Source: Microbacterium sp. MYb54 (GTDB lineage Bacteria; Actinomycetota; Actinomycetes; Actinomycetales; Microbacteriaceae). Taken from it: a stretch of DNA of 64,000 nucleotides. The position numbers and the translations under genes were made by a program. Every line of letters begins with the position of its first letter. Within the stretch, counting starts at the first letter, position 1. The notes beneath the pieces were generated by a model. It worked only from the letters and a program-made list of their open reading frames with translations, searched no databases and was not told where the DNA came from. This document shows positions 2,228-62,988 of this stretch, piece after piece. Location of the stretch: assembly GCF_002979515.1 (NCBI RefSeq), contig NZ_PCPA01000011.1:62001-126000 (forward strand), in the 5' to 3' direction.

Positions 2228-3084
2228 TGCGCCGTAGTCGTGATGTCGGGGAGTCGATCATCCGCCCCCACCTGTCCATCCCGGGACGCGTCCTGCTCCT
2301 GCTGCTGGCCCTGTTCGGCCTGCTGCCGGTCTACTGGCTCACGGCGACCGCGTTCACGAGGAAGGAAGACGTCTTCTCCGCGGATCGTCCGTTCTTCCCG
2401 GTCAATCCGACGATCGAGAACTTCGTCGGCTTCTTCCAGAACGACCTGCTGCTGAAGAACCTCCTGAACAGCATCATCGTCTCCACCGGCACCGCCCTGC
2501 TCGCGGTCCTGGTCGGCGGTCTGATGGCGTACTCGCTCTCGAAGTTCCGCTACCGCGGACGCAACGCCATCATGTTCATGTTCCTCATCGGACAGCTGAT
2601 CCCCGGTGCCCTGCTGCTCATCTCGCTGTACCTGATGCTGAGCTCCGCCGGACTGCTCTACACCTACACGGCGCTGATCATCTCGTTCACGACTTTCACG
2701 CTGCCGCTCGCAGTGTTCCTGCTGAAGGGCATCATCGACGCCCTGCCCGATGACATCCTCGAGGCTGCGAAGGTGGACGGACTCTCGCGCACCGGGACGA
2801 TCTTCCGCATCGTGTTCCCGCTCGTGGTCCCCGGTCTCATCACCGCGGGCATGTTCGCCTTCATGCGCGGCTGGAGCGATCTCCTCTTCGCGCTCACGCT
2901 CGCCGGCCCCGACAAGCAGACGCTTCCGGCGGGACTGACCCAGGCGTTCATCCGAGAAGGCACGGCCGACTGGCCGGCGCTGATGGCGGCATCGCTCATC
3001 ACCTCCCTCCCGCTCGTCATCATCTTCGTCCTCCTGCAGCGCTACTTCGTCTCCGGCCTCGCGGCCGGAGCGGTCAAGGGGTAG
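2227..3084 (+). CDS. Carbohydrate ABC transporter permease (MalG-like)
   Basis: A 285-aa permease partner of the preceding gene. The first membrane span is at about residues 21-42, and the EAA loop reads EAAKVDGL at about 179-186, followed by the usual C-terminal spans. The ATG at 2227 overlaps the upstream stop by one base. MalF/MalG-type pairs form the heterodimeric channel of CUT1 importers in the cytoplasmic membrane. Its binding protein follows after 49 bp. The stretch upstream of the ATG in the same frame overlaps the other permease and is not real coding sequence. Confidence 0.93.
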   Translation: MRRSRDVGESIIRPHLSIPGRVLLLLLALFGLLPVYWLTATAFTRKEDVFSADRPFFPVNPTIENFVGFFQNDLLLKNLLNSIIVSTGTALLAVLVGGLMAYSLSKFRYRGRNAIMFMFLIGQLIPGALLLISLYLMLSSAGLLYTYTALIISFTTFTLPLAVFLLKGIIDALPDDILEAAKVDGLSRTGTIFRIVFPLVVPGLITAGMFAFMRGWSDLLFALTLAGPDKQTLPAGLTQAFIREGTADWPALMAASLITSLPLVIIFVLLQRYFVSGLAAGAVKG

Positions 3085-3133
3085 TCATGCGTCCCGAACA
3101 GCTCGTCCCCCTCATCCCGAAGGAGCACTCCTC

Positions 3134-4447
3134 ATGAACATCTCGAACTCGCAGCTGAGCCGCCGAGCCTTCCTCGGAGGCGGTACTGTCCTCGCCGCGT
3201 TCGGAGCGCTCGCGCTCGCCGGCTGTGCGACGCCCGCTGCCCCCGGCACCGGCGCCGGTGCCACGGCAGCAGCCGCGACCAAGGCCAAGACCATCAACTT
3301 CTACGGCAACTCGCTCGGCGAGGAGGCCCTGAAGTCGGCGTGGCAGGGGATCCTCGACGGCTTCTCGAAGCAGGAGGGCGTCAAGGTCGCCCCGGTCATC
3401 TACCCGTACGACCAGGCAGCCACGCAGCTGGCCCTGACCGGACGCTCCGGCAACCTCATGGGTGTCGGTCAGTCCGGCGGGTGGCAGGTGCTCACCCCGA
3501 TGAACGTGCTCGCAGACCTCACCGACCTCGCCAAGGGGCTGGGCATCCCGCAGGGTGTGCTCGACTCCTACACGATGGACGGCAAGCTGCTCGTGCTGCC
3601 GCTGACGGCTGCCGGCATCGGCATCATCACCAACGGCGAGATCGCGAAGAGCGTCGGCATCAAGTCGGGCATGACCGTGGAGCAGTTCGCCACCGCGCTC
3701 GAGAAGATCAAGAAGCAGGACTCCTCGCTGATCCCGTACGCGGCGGTCACCAAGAACCCGGACCTCAAGGACGCCGTGCCGTGGATGTGGGGCTTCGGCA
3801 GCGAGGTCGTCACCGACGACCTGAAGTGCACACTGGGAGACGCCGAGAGCGTCAAGGCCGTCACCTGGTACAAGTCGCTGCAGGATGCCGGCCTCACGCA
3901 GACGAACGTGGCGCGCAGCGATGCCCGCATCCTGTTCGCGAGTGGCAGGGCAGCCCTGTACGACGACGCACCGCTCGCGTCGACCTTCGTCAAGACGAAC
4001 GGCGCGGCGCAGGACATCATCGACAACATCGGTGCCATCTCGCGCCCGACCGCCGGTGGCAAGGAATCGTTCAACCGGGCCTGGGGCAGCGGTGTCTTCG
4101 CGACGGCTGGCGAGGGCGAGCTCACGAGCCGTGACTTCATCCTCTACGCGGCGACCAACGTCGAGGCGGCGACCGCGCTGTACGAGAACTCGGCGGTCGC
4201 TCCTGCCGCCAAGACCGTGGCCGACAAGATCCCCGCTCTCGCGGCCGACAAGTTCCAGGGCGCGTTCCGCACCGAGGTCTCCGAGCACGCTCGCGGGGCC
4301 GCATGGGACCGCGTCGCCGTCACGGCCCAGATCGACGCCGCCATCGGCGCTGGTGTCGCGACGATCCTCGCCGGTCAGGTCGAGGCGCAGGCCGGCCTCA
4401 ACGCCCTGAAGAAGGAAGTGCAGGGGCTGCTCGACGCCAACTCCTGA
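3134..4447 (+). CDS. Extracellular sugar-binding lipoprotein of the ABC importer (probable Tat substrate)
   Basis: A 437-aa solute-binding protein. The N-terminus carries a twin-arginine motif SRRAFLG at residues 9-15, a hydrophobic stretch, and a lipobox ending LAGC with the lipidated cysteine at 31, followed by an Ala/Gly/Pro linker. The mature part resembles family-1 carbohydrate-binding proteins. It should be exported folded, anchored outside the membrane, and deliver ligand to the two permeases encoded just upstream. The start has AAGGAG about 10 nt before it. A 13-bp stem-loop at 4468-4510 follows the gene. Ligand identity cannot be read from the sequence. Confidence 0.92.
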   Translation: MNISNSQLSRRAFLGGGTVLAAFGALALAGCATPAAPGTGAGATAAAATKAKTINFYGNSLGEEALKSAWQGILDGFSKQEGVKVAPVIYPYDQAATQLALTGRSGNLMGVGQSGGWQVLTPMNVLADLTDLAKGLGIPQGVLDSYTMDGKLLVLPLTAAGIGIITNGEIAKSVGIKSGMTVEQFATALEKIKKQDSSLIPYAAVTKNPDLKDAVPWMWGFGSEVVTDDLKCTLGDAESVKAVTWYKSLQDAGLTQTNVARSDARILFASGRAALYDDAPLASTFVKTNGAAQDIIDNIGAISRPTAGGKESFNRAWGSGVFATAGEGELTSRDFILYAATNVEAATALYENSAVAPAAKTVADKIPALAADKFQGAFRTEVSEHARGAAWDRVAVTAQIDAAIGAGVATILAGQVEAQAGLNALKKEVQGLLDANS

Positions 4448-4467
4448 CCTGTCGCCTGCTTCGAATC

Positions 4468-4510
4468 GCGTGAATGGCCGTGTTCCCTCCGGGGATGCGG
4501 CCATTCACGC
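4468..4510 (+). terminator. Stem-loop terminator after the ABC importer operon
   Basis: GCGTGAATGGCCG (4468-4480) pairs perfectly with CGGCCATTCACGC (4498-4510), a 13-bp stem with a 17-nt loop and no U tract. It lies between the convergent importer and SDR operons and may act in both directions. Confidence 0.6.
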
Positions 4511-4547
4511 GCTTCGTACGTCTGCGGTGAGGTACAAGAACCACGAC

Positions 4548-4581
4548 GAAGGCCGCGTCCCGACAAGGGGACGCGGCCTTC
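4548..4581 (-). terminator. Stem-loop terminator of the SDR/DapA-like operon
   Basis: GAAGGCCGCGTCCC (4548-4561) pairs perfectly with GGGACGCGGCCTTC (4568-4581), a 14-bp GC-rich stem with a 6-nt loop, 19 bp beyond the SDR stop on the minus strand. Confidence 0.75.
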
Positions 4582-4599
4582 ATCGTGCGAACCGGCGGT

Positions 4600-5319
4600 T
4601 CAGAGCCAGCGGTCGCGCAGTACGGGCTTCAGCCAGGCGGCGGGGGATGAGATCGACAGGCCGCCGTCGACGGGGATCGACGCTCCGGTGATGAAGGACG
4701 CGGCGTCGGAGGCGAGGAACGCGACGACTGAGGCCACTTCCTCCGGCCGGCCGATGCGTCCGAGGGGGTAGCCCTCGCTCTCGCCGGTGTCGATCGCTGA
4801 GATGCTTCCCGGCTGCACGGCGTTGACGCGGATGCCCTGGGGGCCGTAGTCGAGGGCCAGCTGTCGTACGAGGCCGTCGACGCCCGCCTTGGCGGCCGCG
4901 TAGGCCGGCAGGGCGGGGGCTGCGAGCGACGAGTTGACCGACGTCACGGCGACGATCGACGAGCCCCGCGTGAGGCGCGAGAGTGCCGCCCTCGCCACGA
5001 AGAACGCCGAGTCGAGAGTGGCGCCCAGCGCGCCGCGCCAGTCCTCGTCGCTCGTGGCTTCCGCGCGCGCGATCGGCATGCGGCCGGCCGCGAGCACGAC
5101 GACGTCGAGTCGACCCAGCGCCTGCTCCGCATCGGCGACGGCGCGGTCGGCCGCCTCGGGCCTGCTGCAGTCCGCGACGAGGTACCGCTCGAAGACCGGA
5201 TCCGACGACTCCTCGAGCCCCACTCCGACGACGGCATCGCCGCCATCGGTGAAGGCGCGGGCGATCGCGAGACCGATGTCGGAGTTGCCGCCGATCAGCA
5301 GCACGCCGCGGCGGGTCAC
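4600..5319 (-). CDS. SDR-family NAD(P)-dependent sugar dehydrogenase/oxidoreductase
   Basis: A 239-aa classical short-chain dehydrogenase. The nucleotide-binding glycine motif is GGNSDIG (10-16), the usual NNAG is replaced by LAAGR (76-80), the catalytic serine is about 127 in VTSVNS, and the Tyr-Lys pair is Y140/K144 (YAAAK). The GTG start at 5319 overlaps the stop of the upstream DapA-like gene (GTGA); a longer frame extends into that gene and is rejected. In this cluster it probably oxidises a sugar to its lactone ahead of the SMP-30 lactonase, or reduces a keto-sugar intermediate. Substrate is inferred only from context. Confidence 0.88.
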   Translation of the reverse strand: MTRRGVLLIGGNSDIGLAIARAFTDGGDAVVGVGLEESSDPVFERYLVADCSRPEAADRAVADAEQALGRLDVVVLAAGRMPIARAEATSDEDWRGALGATLDSAFFVARAALSRLTRGSSIVAVTSVNSSLAAPALPAYAAAKAGVDGLVRQLALDYGPQGIRVNAVQPGSISAIDTGESEGYPLGRIGRPEEVASVVAFLASDAASFITGASIPVDGGLSISSPAAWLKPVLRDRWL

Positions 5320-6233
5320 ACGCGCACCGTGGCGGGGATCGGCGGAAGGGCGAGCTCGTCGATCACGAGCTTGACCGATGCGCGGCTTCCGGCGTCCAGC
5401 CGCGAGGCCGGATAGCGCACGGTCGCGTGGTCGATGATGCCGCGCGCGACGAGAATCTCCTTGTGCACCGCCCACGCGATGCCGCCTTGCAGACCGATGA
5501 GCACGAGAGGGAGCATACGACGGAACTCGGCGCGCGCCTCGTCGACGCGCCCCTCCACGAACTGCGCGAGCACCGGACCGAGCAGGTCGGGGAACTCGCA
5601 GGCCGGCATCGTGCCGACGGCGCCCCTGGCGTACTCCTCCAGGCAGAACTGCGCGTTCTGTCCGCCGAGCACCGCGAAGTCCGGGTCGTCGATCGCCGAG
5701 ACGACGGCGCCGACCTTGGGGGCGGTCGGCGGCGCTTCGACCTTGACGGAGTCGACGCCCTCCAGGCGGGCGATCTCGGCGATCAGCGACGGCGCCATCG
5801 CGACACCGGTGACGCCGGGGGCATCCTGCACCATGACCGAGAGGGAGGTGGCGTCGGCGACGTCGCCGTAGAAGTCCACGAGCGTCCCTGCCGGCGGCTT
5901 CACCATGAACGGCGGCAGCACCATGAGCGCGTTCGCGCCGCCCTCTTCCGCGAGGAGTGCCTGCTCGATCGAGGTCGCCGTGGAGGTGCCGTTGACGCCG
6001 GCGATCACGGGGATCCGGCCGTCGACCACGCGGACGACGTCGTCCAGGATCGTGCGCCGCTCCTCGGTGGTGAGGGCGAAGCCCTCGCTCGCCATGCCGA
6101 AGACGGCGACGCCGTCGACCCCGGATGCGAGCTGGAACTCGACCAGTCGACGCAGGCTTTCGCGGTCGAGGGCGCCCGACTCGTCGAAAGGAGTTGCCAG
6201 GATGGGCATCAAGCCGTGGAGTGTCGGAGCCAT
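5316..6233 (-). CDS. Dihydrodipicolinate synthase (DapA/NAL)-family lyase, atypical active site
   Basis: A 305-aa class I aldolase-fold protein starting MAPTLHGLMPILATPFD. The Schiff-base lysine is K164 (DSVKVE). The strand that normally carries the catalytic tyrosine (YNVP in DapA) reads VMVQDAP, placing Gln136 where Tyr is expected, so this is unlikely to be lysine-pathway DapA. Family members include 2-keto-3-deoxy sugar-acid aldolases and dehydratases, which fits the cluster. The ATG at 6233 is preferred, with GGGGAAA about 6 nt upstream; 15 extra in-frame codons reach into the promoter. Translationally coupled to the SDR. A candidate IclR element is 49 bp upstream. Confidence 0.85.
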   Translation of the reverse strand: MAPTLHGLMPILATPFDESGALDRESLRRLVEFQLASGVDGVAVFGMASEGFALTTEERRTILDDVVRVVDGRIPVIAGVNGTSTATSIEQALLAEEGGANALMVLPPFMVKPPAGTLVDFYGDVADATSLSVMVQDAPGVTGVAMAPSLIAEIARLEGVDSVKVEAPPTAPKVGAVVSAIDDPDFAVLGGQNAQFCLEEYARGAVGTMPACEFPDLLGPVLAQFVEGRVDEARAEFRRMLPLVLIGLQGGIAWAVHKEILVARGIIDHATVRYPASRLDAGSRASVKLVIDELALPPIPATVRV

Positions 6234-56319: not shown

Positions 56320-58086
56320 TCAGCTGATCGTGAGCAGCTGGTGCCCTGCGGAGACCGTGGTGCCGGCATCCGCGCTGATGTTGCCGACGACGCCGTCCTT
56401 GTGCGCCTGCAGCGGCTGCTCCATCTTCATGGCCTCGAGCACGACGACCAGATCGCCCTTCACCACCTGCTGTCCGTCGGCGACGGCGATCTTGACGACG
56501 GTCGCCTGCATGGGCGATTTGACAGCGTCACCGGATGCTCCGGCGTTGGCGGTGGTGGCGTGGCTGCGACGCGACGGCGGCACGGCTGCGGGGCGTCCCG
56601 CGGTGCCGGCGGCGACCGCGACCCGGTCGGGGAGACTCACTTCGAGTCGCTTGCCCGAGACCTCGACGACGACCGTGTGGCGCGACTCGGCAGCGGTCGG
56701 TGCCTCGAGCTCGCCGTCCCACGCCGGGATGTCGTTGACGAACTCGGTCTCGATCCAGCGCGTGAAGACGCCGAACTCGCCGTTCTCGGCCGTGAACGCG
56801 GGGTCGCGGACGACCTTGCGGTGGAACGGGATGACGGTGGGGAGGCCTGCGACCTCGAACTCGTCGAGTGCGCGGCGCGAGCGCTCGAGCGCTTCCGCCC
56901 GATCCTTGCCGGTCACGATGATCTTCGCGAGCAGCGAGTCGAATGCGCCGGAGACCGAGTCGCCCGCCGTGACACCGGAGTCGAGACGGATGCCTGGACC
57001 TCCGAATGTCTTGAACACGTGGATCGGGCCGGGCTGGGGCAGGAATCCGCGACCCGGGTCTTCGCCGTTGATGCGGAACTCGATCGAGTGCCCCTGGGGT
57101 TCGGGGTCGGCGTAGTCGATGGTGCCGCCGGCGGCGATGCGGAACTGCTCGCGCACCAGGTCGATGCCGGTGACCTCTTCGGAGACAGGGTGCTCGACCT
57201 GCAGGCGGGTGTTCACCTCGAGGAACGAGACCGTGCCGTCGGCGCCGATCAGGAACTCGCAGGTGCCAGCACCGACGTAGCCGACCTCCTTGAGGATGGC
57301 CTTGGATGCCGAGTAGAGGAGGTCGTTCTGCTCCTCCGTGAGGAACGGCGCCGGTGCCTCCTCGACGAGCTTCTGGTGGCGACGCTGCAGTGAGCAGTCG
57401 CGTGTGGAGATGACGACGACGTTGCCTTCGGCGTCGGCCAGGCACTGGGTCTCGACGTGACGCGGCTTGTCGAGGTACTTCTCGACGAAGCACTCGCCAC
57501 GACCGAAGGCGGTGACCGCCTCGCGCGTGGCGGACTCGAAGAGCTCGGCGACCTCGTCGAGCTCGCGGGCGACCTTGAGGCCGCGGCCGCCGCCGCCGTA
57601 CGCCGCCTTGATGGCGATCGGCAGGCCGAACTCCTTCGCGAAGGCGATGACCTCATCGGCTCCGGCGACGGGCCCGGGCGTGCCGGGAGCGAGGGGAGCG
57701 CCGACCTTCTCGGCGACGTGACGCGCGGTCACCTTGTCGCCGAGGGCCTCGATCGCATCCGGTGACGGGCCGATCCAGGTCATGCCCGCATTGATGACCG
57801 CGCGCGCGAACTCGGCGTTCTCGGCGAGGAAGCCGTATCCGGGGTGCACGGCATCGGCACCGGCACGACGGGCGATCGAGAGGATCTTCTCGATCTGGAG
57901 GTAGGTCTCGGCGCTGGTCGAGCCTCCGAGGGCATAGGCCTCGTCGGCGAGGCGGGTGTGGAGGGCATCACGGTCCTGGTCGGCGTAGACGGCGACCGAG
58001 GCGATCCCGGAGTCACGGGCGGCGCGGATGATGCGGACGGCGATCTCGCCGCGGTTGGCGATGAGCACCTTGGCGATAGCAGGCAT
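56320..58086 (-). CDS. accA3: Acyl-CoA carboxylase alpha subunit (biotin carboxylase + biotin carboxyl carrier)
   Basis: A 588-aa fusion. Biotin carboxylase occupies about 1-450 ([40 protein letters not shown]), a linker lies near 470-515, and the biotinyl domain is C-terminal with biotin-lysine K554 in EAMKMEQ. It carboxylates biotin for an acetyl-/propionyl-CoA carboxylase whose beta subunit is not in the window. ATG 58086 has a minus-strand TAGGCT box ending 7 nt upstream. The symbol follows the actinobacterial AccA3 type and its closeness to maf; other alpha subunits remain possible. Confidence 0.93.
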
Positions 58087-58093
58087 GGTTGCC

Positions 58094-58099
58094 AGCCTA
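58094..58099 (-). promoter_or_regulatory. Leaderless -10 box of the carboxylase alpha gene
   Basis: Minus-strand TAGGCT ends 7 nt before the ATG at 58086. Confidence 0.5.
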
Positions 58100-58164
58100 G
58101 CGAGTAGGACCTTGATCCTTTTGACGACTCTCCACAAGAAAGACGCGGAAACGTGGAGGGGAGT

Positions 58165-58803
58165 CTACGACCAGAGGTCTGTCCATCGGACGCCGAGCTC
58201 CCCGGCCAGGCGGCGGACGGTCGAGAGGGACATGCCGACCACGGTCGAGGGGTCGCCGTCCACCCGCGTGATGAAGGCGCCGCCCAGGCTGTCGACGGTG
58301 AAGGCGCCGGCCACGTGCAGCGGCTCTCCCGAGGCGACGTACGCGGCGATCTCGGCGTCGCTCACGTCTTCGGCGAAGGTCACTGCCGCTTCGGCCACGG
58401 CAGTCGCCTCGGTGGGCGGTGTTCCAGGAGAGACCCGGAACACCGAGTGCCCCGAATGCAGGATCCCGGTGGCGCCACGCATCTCCTGCCAGCGCCTGGT
58501 CGCCTCCTCCGGTGTGTACGGCTTGCCGTAGACCCGCCCGCCGAGCGCGAACATCGAGTCACCGCCGATCACGAGACCGTCGAAGGCACCCTCCTCCGAC
58601 AGGCGGTGGGCGACGGCGGCGGCCTTGGCGCGGGCGAGCAGCAGCACGAGCTCCTCGGGTGCGAGGGGCTCGCCGCGGTCGGCCTCCGCGGCTGCGGCGA
58701 CGGCATCCTCATCGACGTCCGGAGACAGCGTGAGCGGTTCGATGCCCGCCTGCCGCAGGAGCATGAGTCGGGCAGGGGAGGTGGAGGCGAGGCAGACGCG
58801 CAT
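58165..58803 (-). CDS. maf: Maf-like nucleoside triphosphate pyrophosphatase
   Basis: A 212-aa Maf-fold enzyme removing pyrophosphate from dTTP/UTP or modified nucleotides. The N-terminal LASTSPARLMLLRQAGI loop binds phosphate, GGDSMFALGGRVYGKP carries the catalytic Asp, and the C-terminal GAFTVDSLGG is conserved. ATG 58803 is supported by a minus-strand TACGGT box ending 7 nt upstream; GTGs at 58809 and 58812 precede it. It is divergent from the RNA methyltransferase, with only 23 bp between start codons. Confidence 0.93.
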   Translation of the reverse strand: MRVCLASTSPARLMLLRQAGIEPLTLSPDVDEDAVAAAAEADRGEPLAPEELVLLLARAKAAAVAHRLSEEGAFDGLVIGGDSMFALGGRVYGKPYTPEEATRRWQEMRGATGILHSGHSVFRVSPGTPPTEATAVAEAAVTFAEDVSDAEIAAYVASGEPLHVAGAFTVDSLGGAFITRVDGDPSTVVGMSLSTVRRLAGELGVRWTDLWS

Positions 58804-58810
58804 GTCCACC

Positions 58811-58816
58811 ACCGTA
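58811..58816 (-). promoter_or_regulatory. Leaderless -10 box of maf
   Basis: Minus-strand TACGGT ends 7 nt before the maf ATG. Its first two bases coincide with those of the divergent box TATCCT at 58815-58820. Confidence 0.5.
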
Positions 58817-58826: not shown

Positions 58827-60074
58827 ATGACTTCCTCCCCAGCCGACGTGCTCGAACTCGACATCACCGGCATCGCACACGGGGGCACCTTCATCGCCCG
58901 CCACGAGGGACGCGTCGTCTTCGTCTCCGATGCGATCCCCGGTGAACGCGTCCGCGCGCGGATCATCGCTCCTCAGGAAGGCGCGGATGCCGCGACCCGC
59001 AGCTTCTGGCGCGCGGAGACCATCGAGGTGCTGGATGCCTCGGAGCATCGGCGCCCGCATGTGTGGGCCGAGGCCGACGTATCGCGTGACCCCGCGGACC
59101 GGCCGGGCGGCGCAGACCTCGGGCACATCGACCTCGACCACCAGCGCGAGCTGAAGCGCCGCGTGCTTTCGGAAGCACTCGACCGGTTCGCAGGTTTAGG
59201 GCTCTCCGCGCCGGAGATCGAATCCGTCGAGTCGGGTGACGGTCTCGGCTGGCGCACGCGCGTCACCCTGCACGTCGACGAGACGGGAGTTGCCGGCCCG
59301 TTCGCCGCCCGCAGCCACCGCGTGATCCCGGTGACCTCGCATCCGCTCGCCCGCCCCGCCATCGCCGAGGCCGCTCTCGCGCTTCATGGAGAGGCGCCTG
59401 GCCGTATCGAACTCGTCGAGCCCGCAGACGGCGAGGTCCGCGTCATCCGGCGCGAGGAGACCGAGCGCGCTCCGCGAGTGCAGCGAGGCTTCCGCAAGCG
59501 TCCGACCCCCGAGGTGATCCACGAGATGGTCAACGACCGTCGCTTCGAGGTCGATGCCACGGGGTTCTGGCAGGTGCATCCGAGAGCTGCGTCCGTCCTC
59601 GATGCCGCTGTGTACGGCATCCTCGACGGGTACGTCGACGACCAGAAGACGCACTACGACCTGTACGGCGGAGTCGGCCTCTTCGCCGCGACACTCGCCG
59701 ACCTCGGCGGGACCGACATCGTGACCGTCGAGTCCAGCGCGCGGGCCACGCAGCATGCTGCGGCGAACCTCGCCCCGCTCGAGGTGAAGGCGGTGACGGA
59801 GCGCGTCGACCGCTTCCTGACATCGCAGAAGGCATCGGGACGCACCGGAGCGGTCGTGCTCGACCCGCCGCGCGCCGGTGCGGGCCGCCAGGTCGTGGAG
59901 GCGGTGCATGCGCTCGCGCCGGAGGCCATCGCCTACGTCGCGTGCGATCCGGTCGCGCTCGCACGTGACCTCGGCACCTTCCGGACGCTCGGATGGAATG
60001 TCGACCGCCTGCGTGGCTTCGATCTGTTCCCGCACTCGCACCACTTCGAGGTCGTCGCGCTGCTCACTCGGTGA
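58827..60074 (+). CDS. TrmA/RlmD-family (uracil-5-)RNA methyltransferase
   Basis: A 415-aa SAM-dependent methyltransferase. An N-terminal TRAM-like RNA-binding domain (about 8-70) precedes the catalytic core with LYGGVGLFAATLA for SAM, DPPRAGAG, and nucleophile Cys in YVACDPVALARDL. These enzymes make m5U in tRNA or rRNA. The Fe-S cysteines of RlmD are not apparent in the N-terminal part. ATG 58827 is preceded by a leaderless -10 box. Target base not assignable from sequence alone. Confidence 0.9.
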   Translation: MTSSPADVLELDITGIAHGGTFIARHEGRVVFVSDAIPGERVRARIIAPQEGADAATRSFWRAETIEVLDASEHRRPHVWAEADVSRDPADRPGGADLGHIDLDHQRELKRRVLSEALDRFAGLGLSAPEIESVESGDGLGWRTRVTLHVDETGVAGPFAARSHRVIPVTSHPLARPAIAEAALALHGEAPGRIELVEPADGEVRVIRREETERAPRVQRGFRKRPTPEVIHEMVNDRRFEVDATGFWQVHPRAASVLDAAVYGILDGYVDDQKTHYDLYGGVGLFAATLADLGGTDIVTVESSARATQHAAANLAPLEVKAVTERVDRFLTSQKASGRTGAVVLDPPRAGAGRQVVEAVHALAPEAIAYVACDPVALARDLGTFRTLGWNVDRLRGFDLFPHSHHFEVVALLTR

Positions 60075-60102: not shown

Positions 60103-60108
60103 TAGGCT
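60103..60108 (+). promoter_or_regulatory. Leaderless -10 box of the response-regulator operon
   Basis: TAGGCT ends 6 nt before ATG 60115. Confidence 0.5.
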
Positions 60109-60114
60109 GGGTGG

Positions 60115-60774
60115 ATGAGCACGGTCGCACTCATCGACGATCACGAGTCCGTTCGCCTCGGCCTCGAGGCCGCGTGCGCGCGTGACTCGCAGACCGTCGT
60201 GTTCTCGGGCAGCACGGTGGTCTCCTACCTCGAATGGCGGAAGGCATCCACTGCTGCCCCCGCCGACGTGGTCGTCCTCGACCTCACGCTCGGCGACGGG
60301 ACGACCGTCACCGAGAACGTGAGGTCTCTCGTGAACGACGGTGCGAGTGTCGTGATCCACAGCGTCGCCGATCGGCCGGCCGCGGTGCGTGAAGCGCTCT
60401 CCGCCGGGGCAGCCGGAGTCGTCAGCAAGTCCTCCGCGCTCGACGACGTCCTCGATGCGATCCGCACCGTCGCGCAGGGGGAGGCCCTCAACAACGTCGA
60501 ATGGGCGAGCGCGGTCGACGGTGACCGCGCCTTCGCCGACGCACAGCTCGCCACCCGCGAGCGCGAGGTGCTCCGACTGTACGCCACAGGGTTGCCGCTG
60601 AAGGCGGTAGCCGAACGTCTGGGCGTCGCCTACTCCACCGCCAAGGAGAACATCACCCGCATCCGTGTGAAGTACGTCGAGGTCGGACGCCCCGCGCCGA
60701 CCAAGGTCGACCTCCTGCGCAGAGCGATGGAGGACGGGATCGTCACGGCGGATGAGGCGCCGAGTGCCCGCTGA
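60115..60774 (+). CDS. NarL/LuxR-type response regulator
   Basis: A 219-aa two-component regulator. The receiver (1-125) has acidic residues D8/D9, phospho-acceptor D56 (VVLDLTLG) and K105. The C-terminal LuxR helix-turn-helix (about 146-190) includes ATREREVLRLYATG. It is followed, with 11-bp overlap, by a histidine kinase gene and then a membrane protein gene. The leaderless -10 box sets the start. Regulon unknown. Confidence 0.92.
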   Translation: MSTVALIDDHESVRLGLEAACARDSQTVVFSGSTVVSYLEWRKASTAAPADVVVLDLTLGDGTTVTENVRSLVNDGASVVIHSVADRPAAVREALSAGAAGVVSKSSALDDVLDAIRTVAQGEALNNVEWASAVDGDRAFADAQLATREREVLRLYATGLPLKAVAERLGVAYSTAKENITRIRVKYVEVGRPAPTKVDLLRRAMEDGIVTADEAPSAR

Positions 60775-61999
60775 GCCGCTCAGCATCCGTGACGCCTGGA
60801 GCAAGATCCCCTCTCCCGGCAGCACCGAGACCGCATTCGAGCGCTTCACAGGCAAGCGTATGGAGCGGATCCTCGCGATCGTCGTCGCCATCGGTTCGGC
60901 GGTGCTCGGTGCACAGGCGCTGATCGCCGCGATGAACGGGCTGTCGCAGGCCGACACGGCGCACATCGTGATGCTCTTCGTGGTGTTCGTGCCACTCGCC
61001 GCGATGCTGGTGGCCTGCGTGAGCGGTCGAGGCGTACGGATCTTCGCCGGCATCTTCGCGGTCGTCTACGTGCTTGCGCTCGCCGCCTGGCCGACGGTCG
61101 TCGACCCGTCGGACAAGGGGGCAGGTGATCAGCCCTGGATCTTCTTCCTCGTCAACGTCGGGGTCGTCGCGGCGATGCTCGCGTTCCCGCTGCGCGTCCA
61201 GGTCGCCTGGGCGGTGGGGATGCCGTTCGTCTACGGGTACGTGCGGCTCGTGCAGGGGGAGTTCTCGCGCGACTTCTGGGTGACGACCGCTTTCGACGTG
61301 TCGTTCACGCTCATACTCGGTGTCGTCATCGTCTCGCTCGGGTGGATGTTCCGCTCCGTCGCCGCAGGCGTGGACGAGGCCAGGGGGCAGGCGGTGTCGT
61401 CCTATTCGACAGCTGCAGCGGCGGCTGCGGCCGAAGAGGAGAGGGCGGCGATGTCGGCGCTGATGCACGACAGCGTTCTCGCCGCGTTGATTGCGGCCGA
61501 GCGCGCGGAGAGCGAGCGTGCCAAGGAACTCGCCGTGGCCATGGCCCGTGAGGCGCTCACCCGGCTGGCGAACACCGAGGCCGCCGTCGCGCAGGAGGGA
61601 AGCGACGAACCTGTCGGTACGGCGCAGATCGTCGTCGAGCTGCGCCGGGCGTTGTCGGAGTTCGGTGCCGACGCGATCGTCGAGGAGCGCGGAGGCATCG
61701 GGCTCATTCCCGGCCGCGCGGCTCGTGCTCTGGTCCTCGCCGCACGGCAAGCGGTCGGCAACTCGGTAACCCATGCCAACGGGCGCGGGCTGCACATCAT
61801 CGCCGAAGGGCATGGCGATGAGGGGATCGGAGTGACGGTGTCTGACACCGGACCAGGTTTCGACGTGGAAGCGATCGGTGCAGATCGTCTCGGGATCCGC
61901 GCGTCGATCTTCGCTCGCATGGCTGGCGTCGCCGGTACCGCTGACGTCCACTCCGATGAGCACGGCACGACCGTCACTCTCGGATGGGAGCGCTCGTGA
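60764..61999 (+). CDS. Membrane sensor histidine kinase
   Basis: A 411-aa kinase. About five to six membrane spans lie between residues 35 and 197, followed by an Ala-rich helix and the phosphoacceptor region SALMHDSVLAAL with H235. The ATPase domain has an N-box (NSVTHANG) and G-box DTGPGFD (361-367). GTG 60764 has GAGG about 7 nt upstream; ATG 60752 is an alternative. It overlaps the response regulator gene and the downstream membrane gene (GTGA), so the three are coupled. No recognisable sensory domain beyond the spans. Confidence 0.9.
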   Translation: MPAEPLSIRDAWSKIPSPGSTETAFERFTGKRMERILAIVVAIGSAVLGAQALIAAMNGLSQADTAHIVMLFVVFVPLAAMLVACVSGRGVRIFAGIFAVVYVLALAAWPTVVDPSDKGAGDQPWIFFLVNVGVVAAMLAFPLRVQVAWAVGMPFVYGYVRLVQGEFSRDFWVTTAFDVSFTLILGVVIVSLGWMFRSVAAGVDEARGQAVSSYSTAAAAAAAEEERAAMSALMHDSVLAALIAAERAESERAKELAVAMAREALTRLANTEAAVAQEGSDEPVGTAQIVVELRRALSEFGADAIVEERGGIGLIPGRAARALVLAARQAVGNSVTHANGRGLHIIAEGHGDEGIGVTVSDTGPGFDVEAIGADRLGIRASIFARMAGVAGTADVHSDEHGTTVTLGWERS

Positions 62000-62988
62000 A
62001 CCGCACCGTACGCAGCGTCGCGACCTCGCTCGCCGTCGGATTCGCGCTGTACTTCGTCGCGCGCGGCATCTGGTGGATCGAGCAGCCGACGGCGCCGCTG
62101 CTGATGGTCCTCGCGATCGGCATCTACCTCGTCGTGGTGAACATCGCGATCCTGGGTGACGGCTCTTCGGTGCGGATGCCGCTGTGGTCGGCAGTCGTAT
62201 CGCTGTTGGCGAGCGCGGTCATCCCCGCACTGGTCACGTTCTCTCTCGAGCCCTTCGACCGCACCGCGCCGTTCGCGACCTGGTATATCGGCGGCCTGGG
62301 TCTGCTCGCGGTCGTGTGCATCGTTCGTCGCAGGTTCCTGATCGGCTGGCTGACGCTTGCCGTGCTCATCGTGGCTGCATCCGCCTATCTGGGCTTCGGA
62401 GTCGCGCTCAACCTCGGCCTGGTCGGATCGATCATGTGGGTCGCCGTCGCGAGGCTCCTCGTGATGTTCTGGGATCGCGCCGTCCGCGACACCGAGCGAC
62501 TCGCCGAGATCCAGCAGGCGGTCTCGGCCTGGCACGCCACGCAACGGGTGCGTCAGCGTGAGCGGCGGCTTCGCACCCAGTTCGCGCTGGCCGTCGCAGG
62601 CCCTGTGCTGAGTCGTGTCGTGGCGGCTCGCGGCGCGTTGACCGATCCCGAGAGGCTGGATGCCCGGCTGGCCGAAGGGCGGCTGCGTGACGAGCTGCGC
62701 GGAGCGGACCTGCTCAACGACGCTGTGCGCAACGCGATCGAGACGGCCCGCCGACGCGGCGCTGTCGTCACCGTGTTCGACGAGGGTGGATTCGACGGAA
62801 TCGACGAGGCGCGTCGCAGGGAGATCAGGGACGAGCTGGCGGCCGTGCTCACCCGCGCGCAGACCGCTCGACTCATCATCCGCTCGGCGCGGGATCCTCG
62901 CGTCGCGGTGACCGTGGTCGGACGAGCGGGATCGCGCTCGCCCGGCGATGATGACGCGGTGGATCTCTGGCACGAGATTCCACGCTGA
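61996..62988 (+). CDS. Kinase-associated membrane protein of unknown function
   Basis: A 330-aa protein. Four to five membrane spans occupy about 8-155, followed by a roughly 170-residue cytoplasmic region rich in Arg and Glu (RVRQRERRLRTQF). The tail (LRDELRGADLLNDAVRNAIE, RRRGAVVTVFDEGG) vaguely resembles orphan sensor modules, but no H-box, N-box or G-box can be identified. GTG 61996 overlaps the kinase stop and has GGGAG upstream. Its coupling to the kinase suggests a partner in sensing. Followed by a stem-loop. Confidence 0.75.
   Translation: MNRTVRSVATSLAVGFALYFVARGIWWIEQPTAPLLMVLAIGIYLVVVNIAILGDGSSVRMPLWSAVVSLLASAVIPALVTFSLEPFDRTAPFATWYIGGLGLLAVVCIVRRRFLIGWLTLAVLIVAASAYLGFGVALNLGLVGSIMWVAVARLLVMFWDRAVRDTERLAEIQQAVSAWHATQRVRQRERRLRTQFALAVAGPVLSRVVAARGALTDPERLDARLAEGRLRDELRGADLLNDAVRNAIETARRRGAVVTVFDEGGFDGIDEARRREIRDELAAVLTRAQTARLIIRSARDPRVAVTVVGRAGSRSPGDDDAVDLWHEIPR

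Follow-up and report, generated by a model that had tools for sequence, protein, structure and literature searches.

The third gene of a signalling unit in Microbacterium sp. MYb54 probably encodes a histidine kinase that has lost its catalytic function. The unit lies in a 64,000-nucleotide stretch of contig NZ_PCPA01000011.1 (positions 62,001 to 126,000; hereafter the window) of a 4.25 Mb genome, and consists of a response regulator gene, a histidine kinase gene and a third gene that overlaps the end of the kinase gene. We propose, at a probability of roughly 0.7, that the product of the third gene is a full-length paralogue of the kinase without catalytic activity, a pseudo-histidine kinase, which would form a complex with the live kinase and gate it. 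The features of the unit, in window coordinates, are listed here.

60115-60774, + strand: response regulator of NarL/LuxR type (receiver and helix-turn-helix, by Pfam), 219 amino acids
about 60764-61999, + strand: sensor histidine kinase (membrane part, DHp and catalytic domain), 411 amino acids from GTG
61466-61468, + strand: codon of the kinase phospho-acceptor His235 (LMHDSVL), placed by alignment; His in 119 of 121 kinases
61760-61762, + strand: codon of the kinase N-box Asn333; Asn in 119 of 121
61844-61858, + strand: kinase G1 box, D361-G365 (DTGPG); Asp in 121 of 121
61996-62988, + strand: third gene, putative pseudo-histidine kinase, 330 amino acids from GTG
62008-62466, + strand: six predicted membrane-spanning helices in the third protein, roughly residues 5-157, with short loops (model, hydropathy, loop charges)
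62467-62712, + strand: putative coiled coil and pseudo-DHp hairpin, about residues 158-239 (model helices 134-210 and 217-239; hhalign)
62683-62703, + strand: LRDELRG motif, residues 230-236, with arginines that distant relatives retain
62713-62985, + strand: putative pseudo-catalytic domain, about residues 240-330, as helix, strand, helix and three strands, lacking an ATP lid (model; VIA)
62779-62790, + strand: DEGG motif, residues 262-265; DEGG or DDGG in most relatives

An earlier note, made from the letters of the sequence, had described a three-gene signalling unit whose last member, a membrane protein, overlaps the kinase stop, and both statements stand. The three open reading frames (ORFs) lie on one strand in the order response regulator, kinase, third gene. 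The third gene likely starts at GTG 61996, overlapping the kinase stop (61997-61999) by 4 nt (GTGA), with ATG 61984 as a possible start that would overlap by 16 nt; its own stop is at 62986-62988. The kinase starts at GTG 60764, as in close relatives, or at ATG 60752. When starts were assigned by nearest codon, 29 of 30 same-genus loci, among them the present one, showed the overlap between kinase and third gene; only L029, at +35, did not. The closest named records of the third protein, up to 92% identical, are from Microbacterium.

The same note had given the third protein four to five membrane spans and a tail with no recognised domain. The span count does not hold: the AlphaFold model (mean pLDDT 87.8, predicted template modelling score [pTM] 0.58), hydropathy and loop charges all indicate six membrane helices with both termini inside. 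Five of these occupy residues 5-25, 34-53, 63-83, 96-110 and 114-132, and the sixth is the beginning of a long helix (134-210) that continues as a coiled coil and is followed by a second hairpin helix (217-239). The model ends with helix 242-253, strand 257-262, helix 271-287 and strands 292-297, 303-310 and 322-329. The description of the tail survives for Pfam and NCBIfam, where no family scored above its cut-off, but profile comparison and fold do not bear it out. Among 30 same-genus third proteins the best Pfam E value was 0.0025, in a single member, and 37 diverse tails gave scattered weak Pfam matches (best 25 of 34 families). Matches to SseC, Usp, a cation:proton antiporter, DUF2955 and other Pfam or NCBIfam entries were rejected as chance because they were weak and differed between members. 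Two sequence searches of the PDB returned the DosT ATP-binding domain at E values of 0.1 and 0.14, which are not significant, and the second placed a transmembrane protease fragment (E 0.015) ahead of it.

We then compared profiles of the third protein and of the kinase. An hhalign comparison of 37 diverse tails to the DHp-catalytic regions of 120 kinases scored 32.1, and reversed controls scored 14.3 and 11.5. Full-length profiles of 121 third proteins and 121 kinases, drawn from loci L001-L165, scored 69.7 with a probability of 95.5, and the match was co-linear: third-protein columns 109-322 fell on kinase columns 138-370 (206 columns), running out of the membrane part and on into the catalytic domain. 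Against the third-protein profile, 100 block-shuffled kinase profiles averaged 20.3 (standard deviation 4.0, maximum 38.8), and 50 column-shuffled profiles scored 17.0 or less. On these profile comparisons the third protein is homologous to a histidine kinase.

The predicted structures agree with the profiles, though weakly. From the hairpin onward the two models share the same order of elements, the kinase adding a helix (374-388) and one extra strand near the end, so that the third protein, as modelled, looks like the kinase minus its ATP-lid region. The first seven Foldseek rows for the third-protein model were all histidine kinases. VIA placed residues 238-330 on the catalytic domain of DesK (3ehh) with a deviation of 2.9 A over 85 residues (Z 7.3), and 30 of its best 50 rows were histidine kinases or a phytochrome kinase-like domain; 21 of the 30 span about 236-240 to 330, and nine begin at 138-162 with a large root-mean-square deviation. 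A DHp hairpin joined to a GHKL fold is the arrangement that the model suggests, at Z values up to 7.7 and a Foldseek E value of 0.15.

The residues that make a histidine kinase active are missing from the third protein. At the position of the kinase LMHDSVL it reads VAGPVL, and at the three aligned columns His occurs in 0, 1 and 2 of 121 third proteins. Asn stands at the N-box column in one of 121. The G1 Asp is absent from all 121 at two aligned columns and present in five one column later; [DN]xGxG occurs anywhere in the last 110 residues of only three. No ATP lid or G2 segment is present, the last two strands of this locus's model being separated by 11 residues. The third protein thus lacks the phospho-acceptor His, the N-box Asn, the G1 DxGxG and the ATP lid with G2 that define an active histidine kinase. 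Third proteins of three loci (L095, L098 and L099) retain a longer C-terminal segment, as if the loss had been gradual.

The second gene, by comparison, encodes a histidine kinase with its catalytic residues intact. Besides the conserved His, N-box Asn and G1 Asp listed above, the G2 Gly is present in 119 of 121 sequences. Its HATPase_c match (24.8 bits) falls slightly under the Pfam cut-off of 26.4, and its model matches histidine kinases in Foldseek (best E 1.6e-06) and in VIA (Z 14.9 to VraS, 14.5 to DesK). Assignment to MacS (NCBIfam NF047322) was ruled out at 50.4 bits against a curated cut-off of 300. The first gene is a NarL/LuxR response regulator, with a receiver (Pfam Response_reg, 4.7e-11, 43.3 bits, cut-off 30.2) and a LuxR-type helix-turn-helix (GerE, 1.5e-05, 24.9 bits, cut-off 23.5). 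Receiver residues D8, D9, D56, S83 and K105 are kept in 57 of 57 sequences, Asp56 being the phospho-Asp. MadR (NCBIfam NF047785) was likewise ruled out (62.1 bits, curated cut-off 300).

We assessed how consistently the third gene accompanies the kinase among 199 genomes sampled from the Microbacteriaceae. Relatives of the third gene were found at E values up to 0.001 in 148 and at 1e-19 or better in 145. A strong kinase match (E up to 1e-40) was present in 144, all of which (144/144) also held the third gene at E up to 1e-19. G233 combined the third gene with a kinase at 1.6e-31; G104, G130 and G237 gave weak third-gene matches only, and 51 genomes gave none. When one locus was taken per genus, regulator, kinase and third gene were adjacent on one strand in the same order in 56 of 56 genera, a count conditional on third-gene presence because sampling was confined to genera with a match (61 of 85). 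The kinase adjoined the third gene in 79 of 80 named loci, some from genomes also represented by other loci analysed, and the regulator was there too in 78, both misses lying at contig starts. Seventeen more distant third-gene loci all had an adjoining kinase match, and a regulator was found in 13. Outside these counts stand L105, with no third-protein match at 1e-5, and L102, a 10-base placeholder. The earlier note had offered rare linkage to the kinase in other genomes as grounds for abandoning its proposal; linkage is instead the rule.

In five loci (L086, L088, L101, L164 and L165) kinase and third gene are fused in one frame with no stop, as ORFs of 756-786 amino acids; that of L086 lies at 3676-6015 and that of L165 at 2583-4907. 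Four are extra copies in genomes that also hold a separate pair, and the one at L088 is a distant member; none is orthologous to the unit of the window. Beyond the family the third gene is patchy. It was found in 24 of 296 genomes at the level of the class, 14 of them Microbacteriaceae, and in 25 of 396 at the level of the phylum, some by weak matches; the weakest phylum rows (E about 1e-5 to 1e-3, over short stretches) may be chance.

The third gene has evolved under selective constraint. Its ratio of nonsynonymous to synonymous substitution rates (dN/dS) against three relatives was 0.089, 0.160 and 0.216, and that of the kinase was 0.088-0.135. The values for the third gene, together with its relatives in 148 of the family genomes, mark it as a real gene rather than an ORF that arose by chance. 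Motifs kept into distant relatives are LRDE.RG and R.RG, with D(D/E)GG in most. Across 54 genera the distances of third gene and kinase correlated at 0.896; the partial correlation was 0.744 after allowing for the neighbouring methyltransferase and 0.510 after allowing for the regulator. Comparison values with the methyltransferase were 0.219 for the third gene and 0.097 for the kinase; third gene and regulator correlated at 0.878.

Several observations weigh against a dead kinase paralogue. Homology to the kinase emerges only with broad sequence sets: narrow profiles of 30 same-genus sequences each gave none (probability 0.3), and reversed controls of the full-length comparison still scored 37.0 and 37.5. 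HATPase_c was absent from the best 25 of 34 Pfam families for the 37 tails at E up to 1. The model reaches a pTM of only 0.58 and was built from 30 same-genus sequences; no Foldseek match reaches an E value of 0.001, the top VIA row is an unrelated helical match, and the Z values for kinases lie in a range that a common arrangement of elements can reach. A His occurs somewhere within 16 residues around the aligned place in 19 of 121 third proteins, and 18 have an Asn at some place in the 11-residue N-box stretch, at shifting positions in both cases, and these leave the alignment some room. Each genome in the family searches had only 9-10 candidates scored. The distance correlations lack a null distribution and do no more than point the same way as the linkage.

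Some units depart from the common form. Two loci of genus g38 (L162 and L163) each carry two tandem regulator-kinase-third units, and at each locus the kinase of one unit retains its His, with Ala in place of the N-box Asn and an altered G2, as if it depended on the ATP site of another kinase. In genus g180 (L094, 5245-6432, and L104, 5527-6681) a second kinase-third pair stands beside the first, with no regulator of its own found there; Arg replaces the phospho-His of its kinase while N-box and G1 are kept, a loss complementary to that in g38. The unit is also retained in eight small genomes of 1.1-1.7 Mb (G067, G070, G138, G149, G152, G200, G210 and G213), which have 7-10 receiver-domain matches each compared with 37 in the MYb54 genome; the assemblies of G138 and G200 are 78 and 84% complete. 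Third-protein matches in the small genomes end at profile position 308-319 of 341, and two are odd, with a stop inside that of G210 and a late start in G149. An Antarctic Pseudarthrobacter psychrotolerans plasmid carries the three-gene order (L276, 1757-4807), annotated as a LuxR C-terminal-related regulator, an ATP-binding protein and a hypothetical protein. The match is 29.9% over 60%; the plasmid is typed as non-mobilizable, and the unit lies near a gene of conjugative-transfer type.

The earlier note had suggested an accessory sensor or kinase inhibitor of an undescribed type. Tight linkage makes an accessory sensor or regulator of the kinase the natural reading, but the undescribed type does not stand: the most fitting reading of the tail is a degenerate DHp and catalytic domain stripped of catalytic residues, which goes part of the way towards the known enzyme fold that would have told against the proposal. 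Pseudo-histidine kinases such as RetS, RocA and DivL are already known, as a few cases mostly studied singly. DivL keeps its catalytic fold, acts on the hybrid kinase CckA and is not known to be part of a coupled three-gene unit. TcrA is a split-kinase system; neither a literature search on it (with Rv0600c/Rv0601c) nor those on MadRS and MacRS yielded a match to this three-gene arrangement. Among the papers listed from open-licence literature on pseudo-, degenerate or inactive histidine kinases, Microbacteriaceae pseudokinases and actinobacterial three-component systems, this coupled, family-wide arrangement was not found, and it may be described outside that literature.

Among the closest known systems is FasBCA of group A Streptococcus, in which, as the available text of PMC12675982 describes, two six-span kinase-like proteins, FasB and FasC, share one operon with one regulator and interact with each other. 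Its gene make-up is that of the present unit, and by analogy the kinase and third protein here may heterodimerise. It differs in that the FasC His is likely autophosphorylated and both proteins have a putative catalytic domain (PMC12675982), whereas the third protein, from another phylum, has lost His, N-box, G1 and ATP lid. RocA, also of group A Streptococcus, is a six-span pseudokinase acting through the membrane kinase CovS; it keeps a dispensable His and is an accessory to CovR/S, and the accessible part of its report has the RocA-CovS interaction shown in the membrane and not in a two-hybrid assay (PMC7028121). The third gene here, by contrast, overlaps its kinase gene and is present wherever the kinase occurs. 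RetS of Pseudomonas aeruginosa, a kinase with a degenerate HATPase, regulates another kinase, GacS, but has receiver domains (PMC5992135, in part), of which the third protein has none. The ChrS pseudokinase and HrrS of Corynebacterium glutamicum offer an actinobacterial case of paralogous kinases that heterodimerise, and loss of the ChrS catalytic domain changes signalling; that loss, however, is a frameshift from laboratory evolution rather than a natural family, and truncated ChrS gave no significant heterodimer signal in a two-hybrid assay, according to the portion of PMC9491836 consulted. DivL of Caulobacter is alike as a kinase fold repurposed as a regulator (PMC4211667, in part). TapA, the accessory protein of the actinobacterial kinase MtrB, was set aside as SteA-related and outside the third-protein family, on the available text of PMC12338722. 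The available portions of PMC9739842 (MacRS), PMC12471899 and PMC6106888 hold nothing decisive for this unit.

Computation establishes the gene order, the co-occurrence, the fusions, the homology of third protein and kinase, the loss of catalytic residues in the former, and an intact kinase and regulator. From the linkage, overlap and fusions, and from FasB/FasC, RocA, RetS and ChrS/HrrS, we infer a physical complex of live and dead kinase, gating within it, and a share for the dead subunit in sensing. The two proteins would pair in the membrane and through their coiled-coil and DHp hairpins, and translational coupling, in some cases fusion, would keep their ratio near 1:1. Lacking phospho-acceptor and ATP site, the dead subunit would alter the shape of the complex, and the altered complex would gate autophosphorylation or phosphatase activity of the live kinase; the response regulator would then act on its genes. 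Because the kinase was never seen alone in the sampled genomes, we lean towards an obligate co-sensor over an optional brake.

The likeliest of the rival explanations, at somewhat below even odds, is an obligate activator or co-sensor on the pattern of FasB and FasC, in which the kinase would be weak as a homodimer and work as a hetero-oligomer with the third protein. FasB and FasC, six-span proteins of one operon with one regulator, bind each other and not themselves in the two-hybrid assay, as far as the available text of PMC12675982 reports. Strict co-occurrence, gene overlap and fusion in the present family fit such a pair, and the complementary kinase losses in two g38 and two g180 genomes are as expected if partners share work, but the live kinase of the window keeps every catalytic residue and could act as a homodimer. 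We regard as rather unlikely an inhibitor like RetS, by which the dead kinase would block the live one or hasten its dephosphorylation until a signal relieves it. The accessible text of PMC5992135 has RetS inhibiting GacS autophosphorylation through its catalytic core, and the losses in the third protein are comparable to those in RetS. Yet RetS acts partly through receiver domains that the third protein does not have, and a mere brake need not accompany every kinase, although a brake is compatible with the 144/144 count.

It is improbable that the third protein homodimerises and acts separately, as a sensor or scaffold bound to the response regulator and not to the kinase. DHp hairpins of other kinases bind receivers, and the distances of third gene and regulator correlate at 0.878, but the five fusions join the third protein to the kinase, and the correlation between those two persists once the regulator is removed. 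Least probable is a tail formed by an unrelated alpha/beta domain on a membrane anchor, resembling kinases by convergence: a weak Usp match (E 0.05) in one of 37 members and the weak Foldseek scores speak for it, against a co-linear profile match from membrane part into tail far above the shuffles and an order of elements that fits a GHKL domain.

The unit also has a recurrent genomic setting. Upstream of the unit in the window are the following genes.

56320-58137, - strand: biotin carboxylase
58165-58812, - strand: Maf gene
58827-60074, + strand: methyltransferase

A ROK gene follows the unit, and past the end of the window comes a carboxyltransferase gene on the - strand (L103, 11188-12864). 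With the genes upstream, this places the unit inside an acyl-CoA carboxylase locus, a setting common to most genera examined. Across the family, 55 of 57 loci have the methyltransferase upstream and 56 of 57 have a Maf-like frame there; the carboxyltransferase motif is downstream on the opposite strand in 48 of 56 genera and was not seen in the fetched stretch for eight. Clustering of neighbours included antisense frames and was interpreted by hand. A part in controlling membrane lipids is suggested, though not demonstrated, by the carboxylase setting; the resemblance to DesK lies in the fold.

Taken together, these genes represent an unannotated family of putative pseudo-histidine kinases, found in 145 of 199 genomes of one bacterial family and kept with a live kinase even in eight small genomes. 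Tentatively, and with the odds somewhat against it, we suggest that most of the Microbacteriaceae and scattered relatives in the phylum may use a three-component sensor built on an obligate hetero-oligomer of live and dead kinase. The dead partner, having no ATP lid, would dock on and gate the live catalytic domain through new conserved surfaces (LRDELRG, RxRG and DEGG). Because the unit sits inside the carboxylase locus, such a sensor may monitor the condition of the membrane and adjust lipid synthesis. With its many natural sequences, fusions among them, the family would offer material for studying how a live kinase is gated by a dead one.

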